64,000 bases of DNA from a virus. Under the pieces are notes generated by a model. The model was not told the origin of the DNA and searched no databases. It saw only the letters and a program-made list of their open reading frames with translations. This document shows, piece after piece, positions 1,164 to 63,829 of this stretch (its first letter is position 1; every line of letters starts with the position of its first letter). The DNA lies in IMG/VR virus record IMGVR_UViG_3300030202_003023, positions 18,905 through 82,904 of that record. One strand, 5' to 3'. The translations under genes were made by a program, and so were the position numbers.

Positions 1164-4100
1164 ATATCACATCTTTTAAGTATTTCTTCAAACTCTGCAT
1201 TTCTTCTAGCTTTTTCGTAGCTATCTGATAGATTTCTACTTATGCCTTCTCTTAGTGTACTTGCTATTTCCTTAGAGCCAACAAGTCTAAAGCTACTTAT
1301 TGCAGCGGCTGCTTCTTTGTTTAAAGGGTCTATTTTGTTTTCTTCAAATATAGTACCTGAAGAATCAAATATACTAACATTATCATTAGACAATATAGTT
1401 TGTACACCATATTCTTTAATTGCTTTTCCTGCTGAATTAAATCCTAGTTTAGGTATTTGTCTGTATACAGCAGTGTTACTTTTGGTATATCCTACAAGTT
1501 TAAAAAGATTGCTTTTTGAATCTCTTACATATCTTGCATATTCTACTTCACCAATATCATTTTTTCCTATACTAAAATCAGTACTGTTATTTAAAGCAAA
1601 TAATTTATTTGTACTTATCCCTTTACCTAAAGGTTTTTTGTCTGTATTAGGTACTGTTTTTAATATTCTACTATTTTCAGATAAATGTTTAATGATAGTT
1701 TCTTCTGCTTTTTCACCAAGCAATCCAGGATATCCAGCTGCTGTATTAAGATCATTCATAAAAGATACAAACCCTGATTTTATATAAGTATTAGTAGGGA
1801 TGTATTGGTAAAAACTAAATAAGTTTCTGTTAAATCCTGTAGCATGAAAAGCGTATTTTACTAATTCATCTGCCAGTTCTTCATTTACTTCATACAGTTC
1901 TTCCCATGCTTGTTGGTATAGTTCTCTGTCTTGGTTTTTGTTTCTAAACTTAATATAATCTAATCCAATACCAATACTTTCATCTTTAAAAATAATAGTC
2001 ATATCACTTAAAAGAAGGTTATTTTCTACAAAAGTAGGATTTGATCTTTTAAATCTTTCCATTTTTCTGGCGGTGCTTTCTCTACCAAAAAACAAAGATT
2101 TAAAATTACCGTCTGTAATACCAGCTAATTCAGTACTAGCAATATAAGAGTATATTTCATTTGAAATATCATCAATAGCTTTACTGTCATGTATCTTATC
2201 AGGGTTAACTGCAAACAATATATTAAATAAGGTACTTCTAACTGCATTAGATGACATTAAAGACATGTTAGAAAACATTTTGTTTATCTGCTGTATTGCA
2301 TTTTTATGGTAGCTACCTACCATTCTACTGTCATCAATGTTAAGATATCCTCCAGGACCTGTAATTTGTCCGTTTATTTCTACAACTCCAAATGCTTTTT
2401 GTACATTTTCTATTTTATTATCTGCAATAACTTTAGCAAGATTTAATTCTCTTATGTATGCTTCAGTTAAGTTTTTACCTATTGATACATCTGATTTAGC
2501 GGCTCTAATAACTTCATTTAAATCTTTAGCTTTTTCTTTATAGTCAAGAAAAGCAGCTAATATTAAAGCTTCACGTCTTGGAGATGCTGCAAAAGGATTT
2601 TCTACCATTTTTTCTAAATCTTCTAATGATAATTTTCCTATATTTTTTAGTGCTGTTTTTTTGATTTCATTAAATCCGTTTTTAAACGTGTCTATTCCAC
2701 TTTGTTCTAAATCTTCATTTATTTCTAATATAAGCTGATCTTCTCCTAAAAGTCTTCTTCCTTTTTTGTCGTATGATTTTTTTGCAACTTTACTTTCATC
2801 TTTGTTCTTTTTTGTTACCAACCTACGTAGTACAGGTTGTCCAATAAAAGCATTTACCCACTTTATAGGTACTCCTGCTCTTAACAACATAAATGCTACA
2901 GGAGCTGTATAATTATTAATATTGGCTTTTGCTATGTACGGATCTTTAGCTGCATCTACAATAGCGTTCATATACAAACTTAGCCAATTAGATACTACAT
3001 TACCTTCTGTATCTGATATACTTGATACGGGACTTTTACCATCTACTATCTTACCTACACCTAAATACTCAGAGTGTAGTAAATTGTCCATTTGTGTAGA
3101 GTTATGGTGGCTTAAGTGGTTGGCAACAACTCCTACAAGACCTTTAGATTGGTCAAATAGTACTTTAATTTTTCTTTGAGTAGTCCCTTTAAAGAAATGT
3201 AAGTTATTTCCAAATTCTGTGCTTTGGTCATACAGTCCTTTAGCTGCATCTTCCAATACTGGACTATCTAAAGAAGCCATAGCTGATGGATAAGTTTTTA
3301 CATCAGTAAGTAAAGCCTGCATTAAGTCTAATCTATAGTTTTCTAATGCGGCATTAGTATGCCTTTTAATAGCTGGATAATTTTTAAACTCTTCGTAAGT
3401 AGGCATTACCTTTTCTTCTTGTAGTTTAGCTATTACAGCTTTTTTATGAGCATCATTTAACTCTTGTAATTCTTTTTTTATACTTACTATACTATTTTTA
3501 ATAGTTTTAGCATCATCTAAAGTAAACTCATCTCCTAGATCTATGCCTTCACTTATAACGTAGTCTACAGACTTTTGTATTTGATCTGCATATTCTAGTA
3601 ATTCAGTAGAATACAATGCTGTAAATTCTTCTTCATTTGCTATTTTGCCTAAAGCAGCTTTAATTCTAGCTTTTTTAGCAACAAACTTTAAAGCGTTTTG
3701 TATTTTAATCTTTTTTGATTTTTCAGGAGATTCTAGTTCAGTAAAAAGTTCTCTTGCTCTTACTGATTTTAACCAGTCTTTTTTAGTTTTTTCTTCGTAA
3801 GCCTCTTCTACAGTCATTTCATGCTGGTATCTTGGTCTAGTTATTTTACCGTCTCTGTATTCTATATTAGGCATTACTACAAAAGCTTTATCAATATCAA
3901 AGTCAGACCCAGTTTTTGCAGTGATTTCATTGTATGCTATAATAGTATCTCCCATATGACTTGGAAGTATACCTACAATTTCAAAAGAATCATTAGATGA
4001 TGTAGCCTGGTTAGGAATACGGTAACTAATACCTTCAAGTGCAGAAGGATCAATTGCATCTTTTATCTCTTGTGGAGTCATTGACTTGTACTTAGGACCT

Positions 4101-7100
4101 ATTAAATTTAATAAAGCACTATGTGCTATAAGTACTTGAGCTTTTTTAGTGTAAAATACCCCTTCTTTTTCTTCTAGCTTCATTGGACTTAGACCTTCTC
4201 TAGGGTCTTTGAACCATATGATGCCGTCTTTGGTCTCTTTATCTAAAGAAATAGTATCTTGTAAAGTACCAAAATTAGACATTTGTATAAAAGCACCTCC
4301 TGTTTGTTTTAATTTTACAGAAGCTTTTAATACTTCTGCTGCTATTTTGTTTTCTAGTTTTTTTCTAACTGCAGGCATTGCATCTATTGATACTCCTGTA
4401 TCTAATAAAGCTTTTTCAGAATTAGTTAATTCGTCAGTAAGTGCTTTACTTAAAAAATCATTAAATTTTTCTTTGTTTATAGTTCCATTTAAATGAAATC
4501 CAAAAGTCTGCTCTAGTTTATCTTTACCTATTTTAGATAATTCTGAAATTACTCTATGATATTCAGCAACTAACATTTCTCCTGTCATTTGCTGTGTAAT
4601 TCCTCCAAAGTTTACTTCATAAAATCCATTTTTTAATATTTGAGAAAGTAAATTCTTTACTAGCTGAGAACCTACAAGAGTGTCGTCCATCCCTTTAGCT
4701 TTTAAATCTTGCTGTAAGTATACGTACTTAGTCTTTAGTTGAACAAAAGGCATTTCTGCAGCAACTAATTGGTCTCCATCATTTATTTTAGTAACACCAC
4801 TAGCTCCAACTTTTTTACCATCTATAGTCACAAAATGGTCTGTTTCTGGATTAGCTTCTTGTAATGCGTCTAATGCAGCAAACATTCCAGGAACTATAAC
4901 AGCTTCAGACTGTTTATGGTAATGTGTAGTTCTGTGTCCGTGCTTAAGTACAGGCTCAACATGTACAGTTTTTATAGGTTGCATAAATAGCTTAGTGTCT
5001 TGAAATAAAAGCTCTCCGTTTTTTAATCTGTTATAAGCTTCTTCATGTTCATCACTCCATTTAGACCAAGATAACATTCTCTGTCTGTATAAGTCTAAAG
5101 TAATCCAAGCTTGAGCATCTGCAATATTTATGTTTTTATACCCTTTTACCCATTCAGTAATTTCTGCTGCAGTAAGTTGTTCGTCTTTTTCCTTGCCCAT
5201 GTTAAAGGCTTTGGTCATTCTATCAATTAAGGCTGTATTGAGGTTTCTTTTGCTTAATTCAGCTAACATTTTATCTCCAAAAACTACATTGCTAGGTATT
5301 GGAAATTTACCAAACATATCAGCTAATTCTTTTAGACTTTTCTTATTTAAATTAACGTCTGAATTATAAGGTATAATAAAATTTTTATCAGGATTATCTC
5401 TTGCTACTTCATAAAGTTTTTCAATTTCAGTAAGCATTTCTGCTTCATTTTTAGGAGTACCTATTTTTAATCTTCCGTTTTGAACAGACGCATTTTTAGT
5501 TACTAATCCGTATCCAGTACCTTTATTACCTTCAGTTAATCCAACTTCTCCAGCAATAGCAAAATCGCCTACTTTTTTACTCTGAATGTCATTAACTAAA
5601 TTAGGATTCCAGCTACGGTAGTTTTCTGTAGTGTTTGCATAAGCTAAAGCTGCAACACCTTGTCCATGACCGCCTGCTGAATTTGCTCCAAATACCATAA
5701 CATCGTTTTCTCCAAACATTTCTTGAGAAACTTGGTCTTCAAATGCAGGAGCAGTCTGTTTTGTTTTTCTAGGAAAAAAATAAGCTGAAGGAGCAATAAC
5801 TTCATCTGTAACGCTTGTAGTATAGGTAGGTTTTACATCACCATAAATTCTAGACATAGTACCCCCCGCATTAACAAAAGATGCTCTCTTTTTAAAATCA
5901 GAAAACAAATCTAAAGGTTCTCCTGTTTCCTTGTTAGTTTTAGGTTTAAATCCAGCAGGATCACCGTGGAATAACATAGTCATTTCAATACTACCAATTA
6001 TACTATTTAGAGTATAATCTGCAGCAGCTTCTCTTATGTCATCATATCTAGCAGCAACAGTAGTATCAATTGCTTTATTCACAGCAACTACTTTTTCTCC
6101 TTGCTGTGTAATGCTAATAACATCAACTTCTTCTAATACTTGTAAATCACTTTGTACAGCATTTACAAAAGCTCTTCTAATTCTTAGCCTAAGTTCTTTG
6201 TTGTTACCAGTTTCTTCTGTAACTTTTTTTGCTACTTTTTTACCATTTATAGTTTCAACTAATCCTAATTCTTCTAAAAGCGTTTCTCCTTCTTCGTTAG
6301 TTTTACTAAATTCAGGAAACAAATAGGATTGTAATAAATTTCTGTCTGTATGTAAGTATTCTATGTACTCTGATTTATCAATTTTATTTTCACCGTACAT
6401 ATTTTCATAAATTAACCTCATCCTGGTTAATTCAGCTTTAAAGTACTCCATTAAAATATTAACAGCATTGTCATTACTAACTGTTATTTTTCCTTGTTCG
6501 TTAAAAGTTAATCCAGCTTTTTCAAACTTACCGCCTTTCATAGCAACTTGTTCCTGCTTATCTGCTTCTGCAATACCTGTATAAACAGCCGTTTTATTAT
6601 CCATTAAATGAATATTTACATCAGCTATAATTGCTTCTATTTCAGAAAGTTTACTAACTTTTATACCTTGGTCTCCTTTATCAAGACTTTTAAAATTATT
6701 AAAAACAAAAGTTCTTATTTTTCTACTTGGATCTTCTTCCATCCAATTTAAAGTTCTAGAAATTGAACTCCAAACAGCACTTCTTATTTCACCTGAAGCT
6801 TTTTCAAAGTCAGTATTAAGTTCATTTACTAGTTGTGAAATTAAAGAAGGGTCACTATAAAGTGAATATTGATTACCTTCTGGACCTAATGTAGTAGCGT
6901 CACCAAAATTAAACATTACTTCACCTTGTCTTATTGCTAAAGTTGTTATTATTTGGTTGTCTTCTATTACGTTATTTCCTTTTCCTTGCTCTATAATTGT
7001 ATCACCGTAAAGTACTATTTCTTCTTTTTTAGCTGCTATATCATTAAACACTCCTTGCATTTCTCTACTAGTCAGCATAGCATGTACAGACATAGCAGTT

Positions 7101-60316: not shown

Positions 60317-60367
60317 GTTACAGATACATGTAACTGTAAAAACCCTATCTCTCCCTAGGTTTTTTTA
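60317..60367 (+). terminator. Hairpins ending in a T-run, putative terminator
   Basis: GTTACA/TGTAAC forms one hairpin (60317-60334). AAAACCCTA/TAGGTTTT forms a second (60338-60364), followed by T's to 60366. On the minus strand the A-run before it could also serve as a T-run. No gene precedes it on the plus strand, so a small RNA or bidirectional use is possible. Confidence 0.5.
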
Positions 60368-60446
60368 TTCTCACCAAAACTCTGCTTGCATTTTAGCTAA
60401 CCAGAGATACCATCCTTTTACCCTAACATGGTTTTTGTTGTTCAAG

Positions 60447-60530
60447 TATCATTAAAATGATAGTTGCCTGATCCAACAGCCGTAGTTGCTGAAGTTTGGT
60501 TGCTGAGCTGTTTTAAGGCTTTACGCAACT
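60447..60530. ncRNA. Nested stem-loop element in the non-coding region
   Basis: A small hairpin (TATCAT/ATGATA, 60447-60462) precedes an AGTTGC (60462-60467)/GCAACT (60525-60530) outer stem, which encloses AACAGC (60475-60480)/GCTGTT (60507-60512). This is not a tRNA: no T-loop or anticodon arm could be placed. The rest of the region 60103-60693 shows no coding frame I believe in. Function unknown; strand not determined. Confidence 0.4.
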
Positions 60531-61095: not shown

Positions 61096-61111
61096 GCAAC
61101 ATTTTACTGTT

Positions 61112-61672
61112 ATGAGACAATCATGCGACATTTTAGCCGTAGTAGGTATTCAATCTTCTACGAAGGTGCAAATTGAATTTGCACAGATTATTGACAATCC
61201 ATTTGCTAAAGCAAGTGGCGGTGGTAACAAGTTACTTCAACTTATGAATGAGGGTGATGATAGGTTTGATAATAAACCTAAACAGCAACGTGGTTGGATG
61301 AACTGTGAACGCGCAATGGCAGATAAATTATTTGGCATTAAGTGCTTGCAACCAACTGATGAGCACTACGTTGCTCAATGGGACGGTAAAAGTGCTAAAC
61401 CACGTAAGGAGCTGTTCGTTGCAGATGTGCACGTTAATGGAGAACCTGTTAACCTTGAGGTTACTGAAACTGTTGTTCCTTCTGAAATTCAGAAGAAGAA
61501 CAAAAGTTGGAAAACCAAAGGTAAAGGAGGTGAGGTAGTTTTGCATAAAGGCTTACCTGTTTATTCTACTAAGACACCAATGGTTGGTACACCTAACCAT
61601 ACGTTCTTAGAAATGGATACAGTTCCTGTAACTCCTGAAGTTGCTCCAAGCACTATTGGTGACCTTACATAA
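61112..61672 (+). CDS. First gene of the rightward block, unknown function
   Basis: From the ATG at 61112 the protein has 186 residues. It begins MRQSCDILAVVGIQSST, is rich in Asn/Gly/Lys, has GWMNCERAMADKLFG in the middle and a Thr/Pro-rich end. No family was recognised. The frame extends back to a TTG at 61058, but that region is an inverted repeat likely to be regulatory. A terminator follows the stop. Probably an early-expressed protein, by strand and position only. Confidence 0.6.
   Translation: MRQSCDILAVVGIQSSTKVQIEFAQIIDNPFAKASGGGNKLLQLMNEGDDRFDNKPKQQRGWMNCERAMADKLFGIKCLQPTDEHYVAQWDGKSAKPRKELFVADVHVNGEPVNLEVTETVVPSEIQKKNKSWKTKGKGGEVVLHKGLPVYSTKTPMVGTPNHTFLEMDTVPVTPEVAPSTIGDLT
61166..61184 (+). 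promoter_or_regulatory. 19-base palindrome inside the start of the gene
   Basis: GTGCAAATTGAATTTGCAC is a perfect palindrome apart from its central base. It is about 54 bases into the reading frame at 61112. It has the same half-site as the inverted repeat at 61050-61095, so this may be an operator cluster. Confidence 0.45.
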
Positions 61673-61720: not shown

Positions 61721-61748
61721 TATTGTTTAACTTTTAAATTAATTGAAA

Positions 61749-61934
61749 ATGCATACTGATAAAATAAATAATGCTGAAGTAGTAACAGCAACAGAACTGT
61801 TTGAAATTGTTAATAATTGTAAACACCATTGGTTTGAGGGACAAACTCCTTCAGATGATGAGGGTAATTATATTATGTATTACGTGATTGACAGTAAATA
61901 CTACAGAGTAAATAGAAATTTGTTTAACTTTTAA
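61749..61934 (+). CDS. Hypothetical 61-residue protein
   Basis: From ATG 61749 (an in-frame TTG at 61743 is possible). An acidic small protein with an aromatic C-terminus (YIMYYVIDSKYYRVNRNLF) and a His/Trp segment CKHHWFEG. Not recognised. A hairpin follows it at 61947. Confidence 0.5.
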   Translation: MHTDKINNAEVVTATELFEIVNNCKHHWFEGQTPSDDEGNYIMYYVIDSKYYRVNRNLFNF

Positions 61935-61946
61935 ATTAATGTAATT

Positions 61947-61976
61947 GTATAAGTGCACCTAACGGTGCATTTATAC
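61947..61976 (+). other. Stem-loop after the 61-residue gene
   Basis: GTATAAGTGCACC and GGTGCATTTATAC pair with one G-T around TAAC. It is not followed by a clear T-run, so termination is uncertain; a 3'-end protecting stem is an alternative. Confidence 0.5.
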
Positions 61977-62036
61977 TATTGTCGCAGTATGCACCTCAGA
62001 AAGGAGAGGGAATACATGTCAACAAGTTAATTAGTC

Positions 62037-62076
62037 AGTGTTTGCAGTAGGTTTATTTGCCTTTGCCTATTACACT
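62037..62076 (+). other. Stem-loop in the leader of the 119-residue gene
   Basis: AGTGT (62037-62041)/ACACT (62072-62076) and AGTAGG (62046-62051)/CCTATT (62066-62071) form one hairpin with a 4-base bulge. It lies about 90 bases before the start at 62163, where AAACCATTTAA is duplicated just ahead of the ATG. Role unknown. Confidence 0.35.
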
Positions 62077-62162
62077 CACCACTATTCAACCTGTTTACAG
62101 CACAACAGAAATACAATTACATTAAATAATCATAGCTAAAAACCATTTAAAAACCATTTAAG

Positions 62163-62522
62163 ATGAGATCACTATTTAGATACCCAGGATTTAAATGCGG
62201 TAAATTAAAAGCCGTAGTTGCAAACAGCAAAATACAATTATTTGAAGACGGTAAACTTGTAGATGAATGTAGAACTTCAGACAATAATTTACTGTATGAC
62301 ATTCATGTAGGATATTCAGAAATACCTTGTGAAGTACGAGGTATACATAGAACTGTAATGTACATTGCAGGATATCCAGACAAAGAATATTCAAATTGTG
62401 GTGTAGGATTTAAATTAGTAAATACTTATACTTTTAAAGAAGTATTGTCAGTGTTAACTAAAAATAATGACACTCCTATAACACCTTCTGCTAACATTCC
62501 TGAAGAAGAATTTGATTACTAA
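62163..62522 (+). CDS. Hypothetical 119-residue protein
   Basis: An alpha/beta-looking protein: MRSLFRYPGFKCGKLKAVVA, then a strand-rich middle with three Cys and an acidic C-terminus (ANIPEEEFDY). Not recognised. Single-gene unit closed by a terminator at 62526. Possibly an early accessory protein. Confidence 0.55.
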   Translation: MRSLFRYPGFKCGKLKAVVANSKIQLFEDGKLVDECRTSDNNLLYDIHVGYSEIPCEVRGIHRTVMYIAGYPDKEYSNCGVGFKLVNTYTFKEVLSVLTKNNDTPITPSANIPEEEFDY

Positions 62523-62525
62523 TAC

Positions 62526-62553
62526 AAGAGGGCTTTAATTAGTCCTCTTTTTT
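62526..62553 (+). terminator. Terminator after the 119-residue gene
   Basis: AAGAGG(G)CT and AG(T)CCTCTT pair, followed by six T (62548-62553). It starts four bases after the stop. Confidence 0.8.
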
Positions 62554-62577: not shown

Positions 62578-62871
62578 ATGATACAGTTAATAATATTCCT
62601 AAAGAAATGTCTACAAAGACGTGATGCAATACAAGAGTTTATTTCATCAGAAGAAGAAAATGAAGCATTAGCATGCAAATGGATGGATGATGCTTTAGTT
62701 GACGAGCAATATGCAAATCATTTAGCAAAACTGCGTGAAGAAGGACTTGATGCAGAGCCATATGATGAATTTGGTAATCCCATCATTGAAGAGATGGATG
62801 ATGAAGCTTTCATATTTGGTGATGAACCTGAAGATATACTTGATGAATCCAATTATAACTATGAAGGTTAA
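62578..62871 (+). CDS. Hypothetical acidic 97-residue protein
   Basis: Starts with a hydrophobic/basic helix (MIQLIIFLKKCLQRRDAIQE), then a strongly acidic region rich in Asp and Glu, ending DESNYNYEG. Acidic small phage proteins may mimic DNA or bind host factors, but no family is recognised. Confidence 0.5.
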   Translation: MIQLIIFLKKCLQRRDAIQEFISSEEENEALACKWMDDALVDEQYANHLAKLREEGLDAEPYDEFGNPIIEEMDDEAFIFGDEPEDILDESNYNYEG

Positions 62872-62881
62872 AGAAGCTTCC

Positions 62882-63024
62882 TGAACAAGAGTTAAAACTG
62901 TTCATTAGCTGATGTTAGAGAAGGAGAGTACTCCGAGCATATTTATATGCATACGTCTAACAGGCTCAAGGTAAGAGAGATTGATCATCTCCACCTGTAC
63001 TATAAAAGTGCAGGTCAAATTTTT
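62882..63024 (+). ncRNA. Candidate structured RNA A with terminator-like end
   Basis: Hairpins in series: TGAACA/TGTTCA (62882-62904); a three-way element with outer stem GTTAGA/TCTAAC (62914-62961) holding GGAG/CTCC and GCATAT/ATATGC arms; GAGAT/ATCTC (62977-62991); then ACCTGTACT/AGTGCAGGT (62993-63015) followed by CAAATTTTT. The last looks like a terminator. A 51-codon frame (62947-63102) crosses it but has little support. Promoter not identified; function unknown. Confidence 0.45.
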
Positions 63025-63090
63025 AACTTTATCAGTATATTGAAAACTGTTCGTGTAAACCTCATGACCGTCTTAGTAATTGAGTACAAC

Positions 63091-63115
63091 AAAGCTACGT
63101 AAAGGCTTTATTTTA
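63091..63115 (+). terminator. Weak terminator-like hairpin
   Basis: AAAGC/GCTTT with a 9-base loop, followed by ATTTTATT. Short stem, so modest confidence. It is the second of four such ends in the non-coding stretch. Confidence 0.4.
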
Positions 63116-63122
63116 TTAACCA

Positions 63123-63211
63123 CGTTTGTCAGTGTCCTTAAACTGAACGTTGTCCAAAGCTTATGCAAAAGTGGGTAGACCATCAAGAGTACGTTAAGCT
63201 CTTGATTTTTT
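63123..63211 (+). ncRNA. Candidate structured RNA C with strong terminator
   Basis: CGTT/AACG plus CAGT/ACTG (63123-63149) forms one hairpin; ATCAAGAG (63182-63189)/CTCTTGAT (63199-63206) is a perfect terminator stem followed by T to 63211. A 16-codon frame (MQKWVDHQEYVKLLIF) runs through the stem but may be chance. Confidence 0.5.
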
Positions 63212-63214
63212 AAC

Positions 63215-63354
63215 ATCATTAGAAAGAAATAAAGCTACACGTAAAATAAGAGTAAAACGGCTTGCTAGGCAAAGTAGATAGCTTGTGTAGATAAAATATG
63301 GAGGAAATAGGGTTATGCAGTAAATCTCCTAATGTCTTTACTAATGATTTTTTT
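63215..63354 (+). ncRNA. Candidate structured RNA D, three-way folded, ending in seven T
   Basis: The outer stem ATCATTAGAAAG (63215-63226) pairs with CTTTACTAATGAT (63336-63348), one bulge, followed by seven T. Inside, CTACAC/GTGTAG and a TTGC/GCAA hairpin make one arm, and GGAG/CTCC another. The long-range terminal stem plus T-run is typical of small structured RNAs. It lies 39 bases before the gene at 63393, so it could also be a leader element. Confidence 0.5.
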
Positions 63355-63392
63355 AAATTCTTTAAATAATATAACTAAAAACTTAAAATATT

Positions 63393-63818
63393 ATGTACAA
63401 ATCAACTGAAGTATATGAAATGAATAATGAATGCAATGCTAAAGATGAATTGCTAAGAATATTAGGAGAGACATCAGGTTTAAGACCTGACTTTTTAATT
63501 AAATGTGCTACAATAACAATTAAAGCAAATAATGTAAGAGCTTTACAAACATTTGGACAGTATGAAGATCCAAATCCTGTTGTTGCAAATCTAAAAGTCA
63601 ATAAATTTAAAGAAAGAAGATATAACTATCAGTCTTCTAATGCAATTGATGAATTTTTAGATAAGCTTAATGTAGTTTATGATTGCGGTTATGGTGGTCA
63701 AGAACTATTCGGTACTGTTTGGTTACATGATGGTACTTGGTTATCAAGAGAAGAATATGATGGTTCAGAAGGTTGGATACATCAAAAATCACCTGAAATT
63801 CCAGAGGACTTATTGTAG
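63393..63818 (+). CDS. Hypothetical 141-residue protein
   Basis: Starts at ATG 63393; an ATG at 63420 is also possible. The first half is helical (KDELLRILGETSGLRPDFL), the second has Trp/Gly-rich parts (GYGGQELFGTVWLHDGTWL). Not recognised. Its last codons form the upstream arm of the terminator that follows. Confidence 0.55.
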   Translation: MYKSTEVYEMNNECNAKDELLRILGETSGLRPDFLIKCATITIKANNVRALQTFGQYEDPNPVVANLKVNKFKERRYNYQSSNAIDEFLDKLNVVYDCGYGGQELFGTVWLHDGTWLSREEYDGSEGWIHQKSPEIPEDLL

Positions 63819-63829
63819 TCCTCTTTTTT
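63803..63829 (+). terminator. Terminator overlapping the end of the 141-residue gene
   Basis: AGAGGACT/AGTCCTCT is a perfect stem around TATTGT, followed by six T. The TAG stop at 63816-63818 is inside the stem. Confidence 0.85.

Follow-up and report, generated by a model that had tools for sequence, protein, structure and literature searches.

The DNA analysed here, called the window in the following, is a 64-kb stretch that covers part of an 89.7-kb virus record. Matches to PHROGs (E 1e-97 to 1e-138) identify its terminase, portal and capsid proteins, and the best relatives of the terminase (TerL) are found in Cellulophaga phage phi14:2 (53%), which is the nearest isolate, and in gut crAss-like phages (about 30%). 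With a crAss-type TerL, portal and capsid, the source record is an uncultured crAss-like (Crassvirales) phage. Gene directions diverge at about 60-61 kb, with structural genes running leftward and small genes running rightward; the latter are presumably early genes, judging by gene position in crAss-like phages. Two of these rightward genes flank the stretch under study, and the following features are considered.

60333-60480, minus strand: four-hairpin structured RNA lying between genes that run leftward, its arms covarying and its loops conserved (arm-by-arm comparison)
61936-62125, plus strand: gene-free 190-nt element ('unit 0') with a perfect 15-bp closing stem, TTAATGTAATTGTAT/ATACAATTACATTAA (z -5.4, 0 of 200 shuffles)
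62526-62549, plus strand: hairpin/T-run end just past the stop codon of gene 62163-62522 (strict scan)
62872-63392, plus strand: stretch without genes, flanked by two early genes that run rightward (sequence, ORF list, PHROG search)
62913-62962, plus strand: three-way (Y) fold of unit A, TGTTAGA/TCTAACA closing two hairpins (z -3.0)
62993-63027, plus strand: 3' end of unit A, hairpin ACCTGTACT..AGTGCAGGT followed by CAAATTTTTAAC (both scans)
63026-63117, plus strand: unit B, weak fold with a small hairpin at 63091-63109, then ATTTTATTAAC (z -0.4)
63117-63213, plus strand: unit C, fold closed by CCAC/GTGG and strong hairpin ATCAAGAG..CTCTTGAT, then TTTTTTAAC (z -2.3)
63213-63355, plus strand: unit D, end-to-end 13-bp stem (63215-63348) around CTACAC/GTGTAG and GGAG/CTCC arms, leading into TTTTTTT (0 of 200 shuffles)
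63356-63392, plus strand: A/T-rich leader of gene 63393, like those of other early genes (63355-63392 has 8% GC)
63803-63824, plus strand: hairpin/T-run end that overlaps the stop of gene 63393-63818 (strict scan)
L015 5180-5200 and 5425-5450, right of the window: hairpin/T-run ends of early genes

Several early genes have a hairpin/T-run at or after the stop codon, and each of these genes therefore seems to be equipped with an end of its own. The set of early genes changes rapidly. Only one of the early proteins encoded right of 61 kb, L015 5644, has a clear relative among 12 loci, a count that sets aside L149, part of a contig which has an identical terminase and stops before the array. When the protein encoded at 61106-61672 was used as bait, the sole match was the contig with the identical TerL, ending before the array, and no relatives were found with the neighbouring proteins 63393 and 62163 as bait. 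A 21-base repeat, TTGTTTAACTTTTAAATTAAT, is identical at 61724-61744 and 61920-61940 of the window and precedes two early units. To the right of the window, a P-II regulator, an ammonium transporter and a BBP2 porin are encoded in a row (L015 6919-9472), that is, host-type nitrogen genes in a phage, and the protein encoded at L015 11000-11734 has a CxxxCxxC-type motif and resembles, by eye only, radical-SAM spore photoproduct lyases.

The longest ORF between the stop codon at 62871 and the next gene's ATG (63393) has 51 amino acids. The ORFs of 32-51 amino acids inside the stretch have no PHROG match, and neither hidden small proteins nor a coding remnant was found there, which confirms the 520 gene-free bases described in an earlier note on this DNA. 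About 480 bases are non-coding stem-loop sequence with T-runs. A simple scan finds four hairpin/T-run ends on the plus strand (62993-63015, 63091-63109, 63182-63206 and 63215-63348), as the earlier note had them at about 63024, 63115, 63211 and 63354, and none on the minus strand of the stretch. Shuffled sequences have on average 1.7 such sites on the plus and 2.9 on the minus strand, and four are reached in 6 of 200 shuffles; the scoring schemes of the scans were picked after the sequence had been seen, which makes the shuffle counts indicative rather than strict P values. The four ends differ in strength. Those at 62993-63015 and 63182-63206 are strong local hairpins, G+C-rich and followed at once by a T-run as in intrinsic terminators, and are the two that pass a strict terminator scan; that at 63091-63109 is a weak end, and a long-range stem forms the fourth. 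The first three T-runs (ATTTTTAAC, TTTTATTAAC and TTTTTTAAC) run on into TTAAC at the unit joins (63021-63027, 63110-63120 and 63207-63214), and similar joins are seen in the array of L017, a related phage locus (TTTTATTAAC/TTTTATTAAG, also TTTTATTAAC/G). Promoter-like sites are not in excess in the stretch according to a built-in scan. As only a few bases separate one T-run from the next unit, there is no space for one promoter per unit, so that an 'array' would have to be a single transcript, made by read-through and cut, or terminated, at more than one point.

The units differ in how well they fold. The Y-fold of unit A has a minimum free energy of -12.8 kcal/mol, which is matched by 2 of 200 shuffles (z -3.0), and unit C folds moderately better than its shuffles (z -2.3). 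The folding energy of unit D is weak (z -1.5); its stem of 13 bp with one bulge, which leads directly into TTTTTTT, scores 27 compared with a mean of 14 in 200 whole-array shuffles, none of which is as good. Unit B does not fold significantly better than its shuffles (z -0.4). The Y-shaped fold of unit A and the long-range stem with arms of unit D had both been noticed earlier and hold up here, and the claim of internal stems in every unit stands for A, C and D and fails for B. Units A, C and D likewise have features expected of a small-RNA cluster, as they are folded, contain no genes and finish at discrete hairpin/T-run 3' ends; B falls short in its folding. Over the array as a whole, the average folding z of -1.35 is no stronger than that of the rest of the phage's early region, genes included (-1.54), so a folding excess as such is no evidence; folding all 521 nt together likewise gives an ordinary minimum free energy (z -1.4).

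No family among the Rfam 15 covariance models matches the array at the gathering score, ribozyme families give no match at E<=10, and riboswitch or leader families likewise give none. The covariance search that the earlier note had suggested thus came back empty, in agreement with its statement that no known RNA class fits. No tRNA, tmRNA or tRNA remnant was found in the array: ARAGORN makes no call, and there is no T-arm with a 7-nt T-loop followed by an acceptor strand, whereas the same tests gave positive controls in L015, L017 and phi14:2. Due to the absence of a T-arm, we rejected the idea that the array consists of tRNA remnants. DNA searches in phages and plasmids returned only short, mostly A/T-rich chance matches, the hairpin of unit C, the sole unit scanned in this way, has no exact match in IMG/VR, and no relative turned up in eight related virus records. 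Covariance models built from the single sequences of unit A and unit D recovered only these units themselves in 0.6 Mb of phage loci that are related or carry RNAs, with next best E values of 0.9 and 0.6. In the collections searched, the array is thus an orphan without a known family. Its missing conservation has little weight for or against a function, since the surrounding early genes are equally private.

Structured RNAs are also present elsewhere in this genome. The strongest fold near the array is that of unit 0 (61936-62125). To the right of the window, L015 5452-5526 has an 11-bp stem, AAAAGACAGTG/CACTGTCTTTT, followed by TTT (0 of 200 shuffles), and L015 6591-6785 is a 195-nt gene-free, stem-closed element directly upstream of a tRNA gene at 6791-6869, which ARAGORN calls as tRNA-Tyr. 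At a distance of 2.4 kb from the array, the RNA at 60333-60480 is conserved in five other crAss-like contigs (L005, L006, L008, L022 and L024). The arms of its hairpin 2 change in concert (ACCAT/ATGGT, AACTA/TAGTT, AGTAGA/TCTACT and AACTTG/CAAGTT), and hairpin 3 occurs in the forms CTGCCT/AGGCAG and CTGCTT/AAGCAG, while three members have a G-G mismatch in it; in this comparison the arms were picked by eye and matched arm by arm, and hairpin lengths differ among members. The loops, for example AGGGTAAAAGG and TAGGGAGAGA, are largely kept, and this RNA has no Rfam family match.

The related phages show a similar picture. Two contigs share a gene-free RNA (L022 19442-19618 and L024 16856-17038, both reverse complement) whose core, ACTGCAG(A)ATGGGCTTGCCCAG, is conserved and whose closing stems of 12-14 bp differ in sequence and both still pair; within IMG/VR, the core pattern is found in these two contigs only. 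Rows of stem-closed units are present in L017. In phi14:2 (NC_021806), the gene-free early stretches 1279-1990 and 2905-4601 contain several folded blocks. The second of these, 1.7 kb long, has no retained genes, the earlier ORF calls having been withdrawn in 2020; it has blocks conserved with L017 and a predicted tmRNA (tag GSSVQKLAMVA, L028 4031-4500), which Rfam does not report at the gathering score. This phage group places structured RNAs in comparable gene-free stretches.

One block shared by phi14:2 and L017, GTTGTYMCCTTGAGAAAG, is matched by at least 120 IMG/VR stretches (L029-L148). It opens an element of 80-150 nt, composed of a closing stem (TGTGTTGT/ACAACACA), a TTCC-CTTGAGAAA-GGAA hairpin, a variable helix and a downstream segment. 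Copies of the element, GTGTTGTTCCCTTGAGAAAGGAA..ACAACAC, lie at L028 3131-3212 and L017 1117-1243 (minus strand) and in the at least 120 IMG/VR stretches. The downstream segment is complementary to the TGAGAA loop of the element, with TTCTCA present in 59 of 93 non-redundant copies among the matches listed, and in many copies a GAGG..CCTC hairpin presents this segment in its loop, suggesting that the two loops could pair as a kissing loop. An ARAGORN tRNA lies close by on the same strand in 37 of 135 copies, again among the matches listed, and no Rfam family covers the element at E<=1 in the loci sampled. Model R1, which scores 70.5 bits in phi14:2 and 56.8 bits in L017 as positive controls, together with the conserved core indicates that this element (GTTGTTCCCTTGAGAAAGGAA..ACAACAC) is absent from the array and from the genome studied here. 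In terms of interest, the conserved crAss-like RNA at 60333-60480 and this widespread tRNA-adjacent phage RNA may outrank the array.

We lean towards the view that at least one small structured RNA comes from the stretch, as a product of read-through early transcription that ends at the hairpin/T-runs. The array would then be a cluster of small non-coding RNAs that is specific to one lineage and lies in the early region of its crAss-like genome. The rightward early strand would be read through from upstream into one RNA, and termination or trimming of this RNA at the four ends would leave stable folded RNAs; the best candidates are unit D, whose closing stem joins its two ends, and the Y-folded unit A. 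Like other small RNAs of phages, such RNAs might be produced early and either target host or phage RNAs or serve as decoys. Small RNAs are favoured because other gene-free stretches of this genome and of its relatives hold stem-closed structured RNAs, and they are supported by the strand-specific excess of hairpin/T-runs, by the stem of unit D and by the fold of unit A. The lack of an array relative, the ordinary overall folding, the unfolded unit B and the lack of an excess of promoter-like sites weaken this reading. The 'array of small phage RNAs' put forward in the earlier note is plausible and partly supported: a phage source, no matching Rfam class and a phage group that carries structured RNAs speak for it, and unit B, without a significant fold, does not belong to the part that stands.

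The main rival, which we regard as possible but rather doubtful, is that the stretch is a 3' UTR or spacer and that its hairpin/T-runs are ordinary transcription ends. The unit A hairpin would be the terminator of gene 62578-62871, and B, C and D would be back-up ends or relics of deleted small genes that left their terminators behind. Neighbouring early genes indeed have hairpin/T-run ends at their stop codons; gene 62578-62871 has no terminator before 62993 and may thus have unit A as its 3' UTR. The fast turnover of early genes and array folding no stronger than that of its surroundings also fit. However, this explanation accounts neither for the Y-fold of unit A and the end-to-end stem of unit D nor for the stem-closed elements elsewhere in the genome, and the PHROG search of the stretch found no coding remnant. 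It is improbable that the stretch, which lies immediately 5' of gene 63393-63818, is one long structured leader that controls this gene by premature ends: four successive ends could serve as graded attenuators, but an A/T-rich leader of 37 bases, as in other early genes, lies between unit D and the gene, and no riboswitch or leader family matches. It is very hard to credit that the stretch is a DNA site acting in cis, for instance an origin of replication or a packaging site in which the inverted repeats are incidental. Inverted repeats in a gene-free part of the early region would suit such a site, but the hairpin/T-run pattern is confined to the plus strand, which fits RNA rather than DNA.

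If the small RNAs proposed here are expressed, the early region of abundant crAss-like phages makes small RNAs besides small proteins. As a speculation that we ourselves consider unlikely, units A and D, the element at 61936-62125 and those at L015 5452-5526 and 6591-6785 might belong to one undescribed, fast-evolving class of stem-closed small RNAs, arranged in tandem in crAss-like early regions and used early in infection.

In the papers that we searched, there was nothing on non-coding RNAs of crAss-like phages. Phage T4 makes RNA C and RNA D, stable small RNAs of its tRNA cluster with unknown function. Like these, the putative RNAs of the array are short, structured and non-coding and lie in a gene-free phage stretch, with a tRNA gene about 2.5 kb to the right; in contrast, the T4 RNAs lie inside the tRNA cluster, whereas the array has no tRNA or T-arm. 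GOLLD and ROOL are further phage-associated RNAs. Both are large and ornate, each being a single large conserved RNA (PMC12286853). They share with the array that they are non-coding, but the array matches no Rfam family. The HDV-like theta ribozymes of gut bacteriophages, which are linked to tRNA-based recoding (PMC10879173), are small folded phage RNA elements as well, but the array has no ribozyme match at E<=10. The predicted tmRNA, the tRNA-like end and the widespread RNA element of phi14:2 are all absent from the array, and no convincing sequence or model match connects the two. Nevertheless, this nearest isolated relative also has a gene-free stretch with several folded blocks among its early genes and, with a culturable host, provides a ready test bed.
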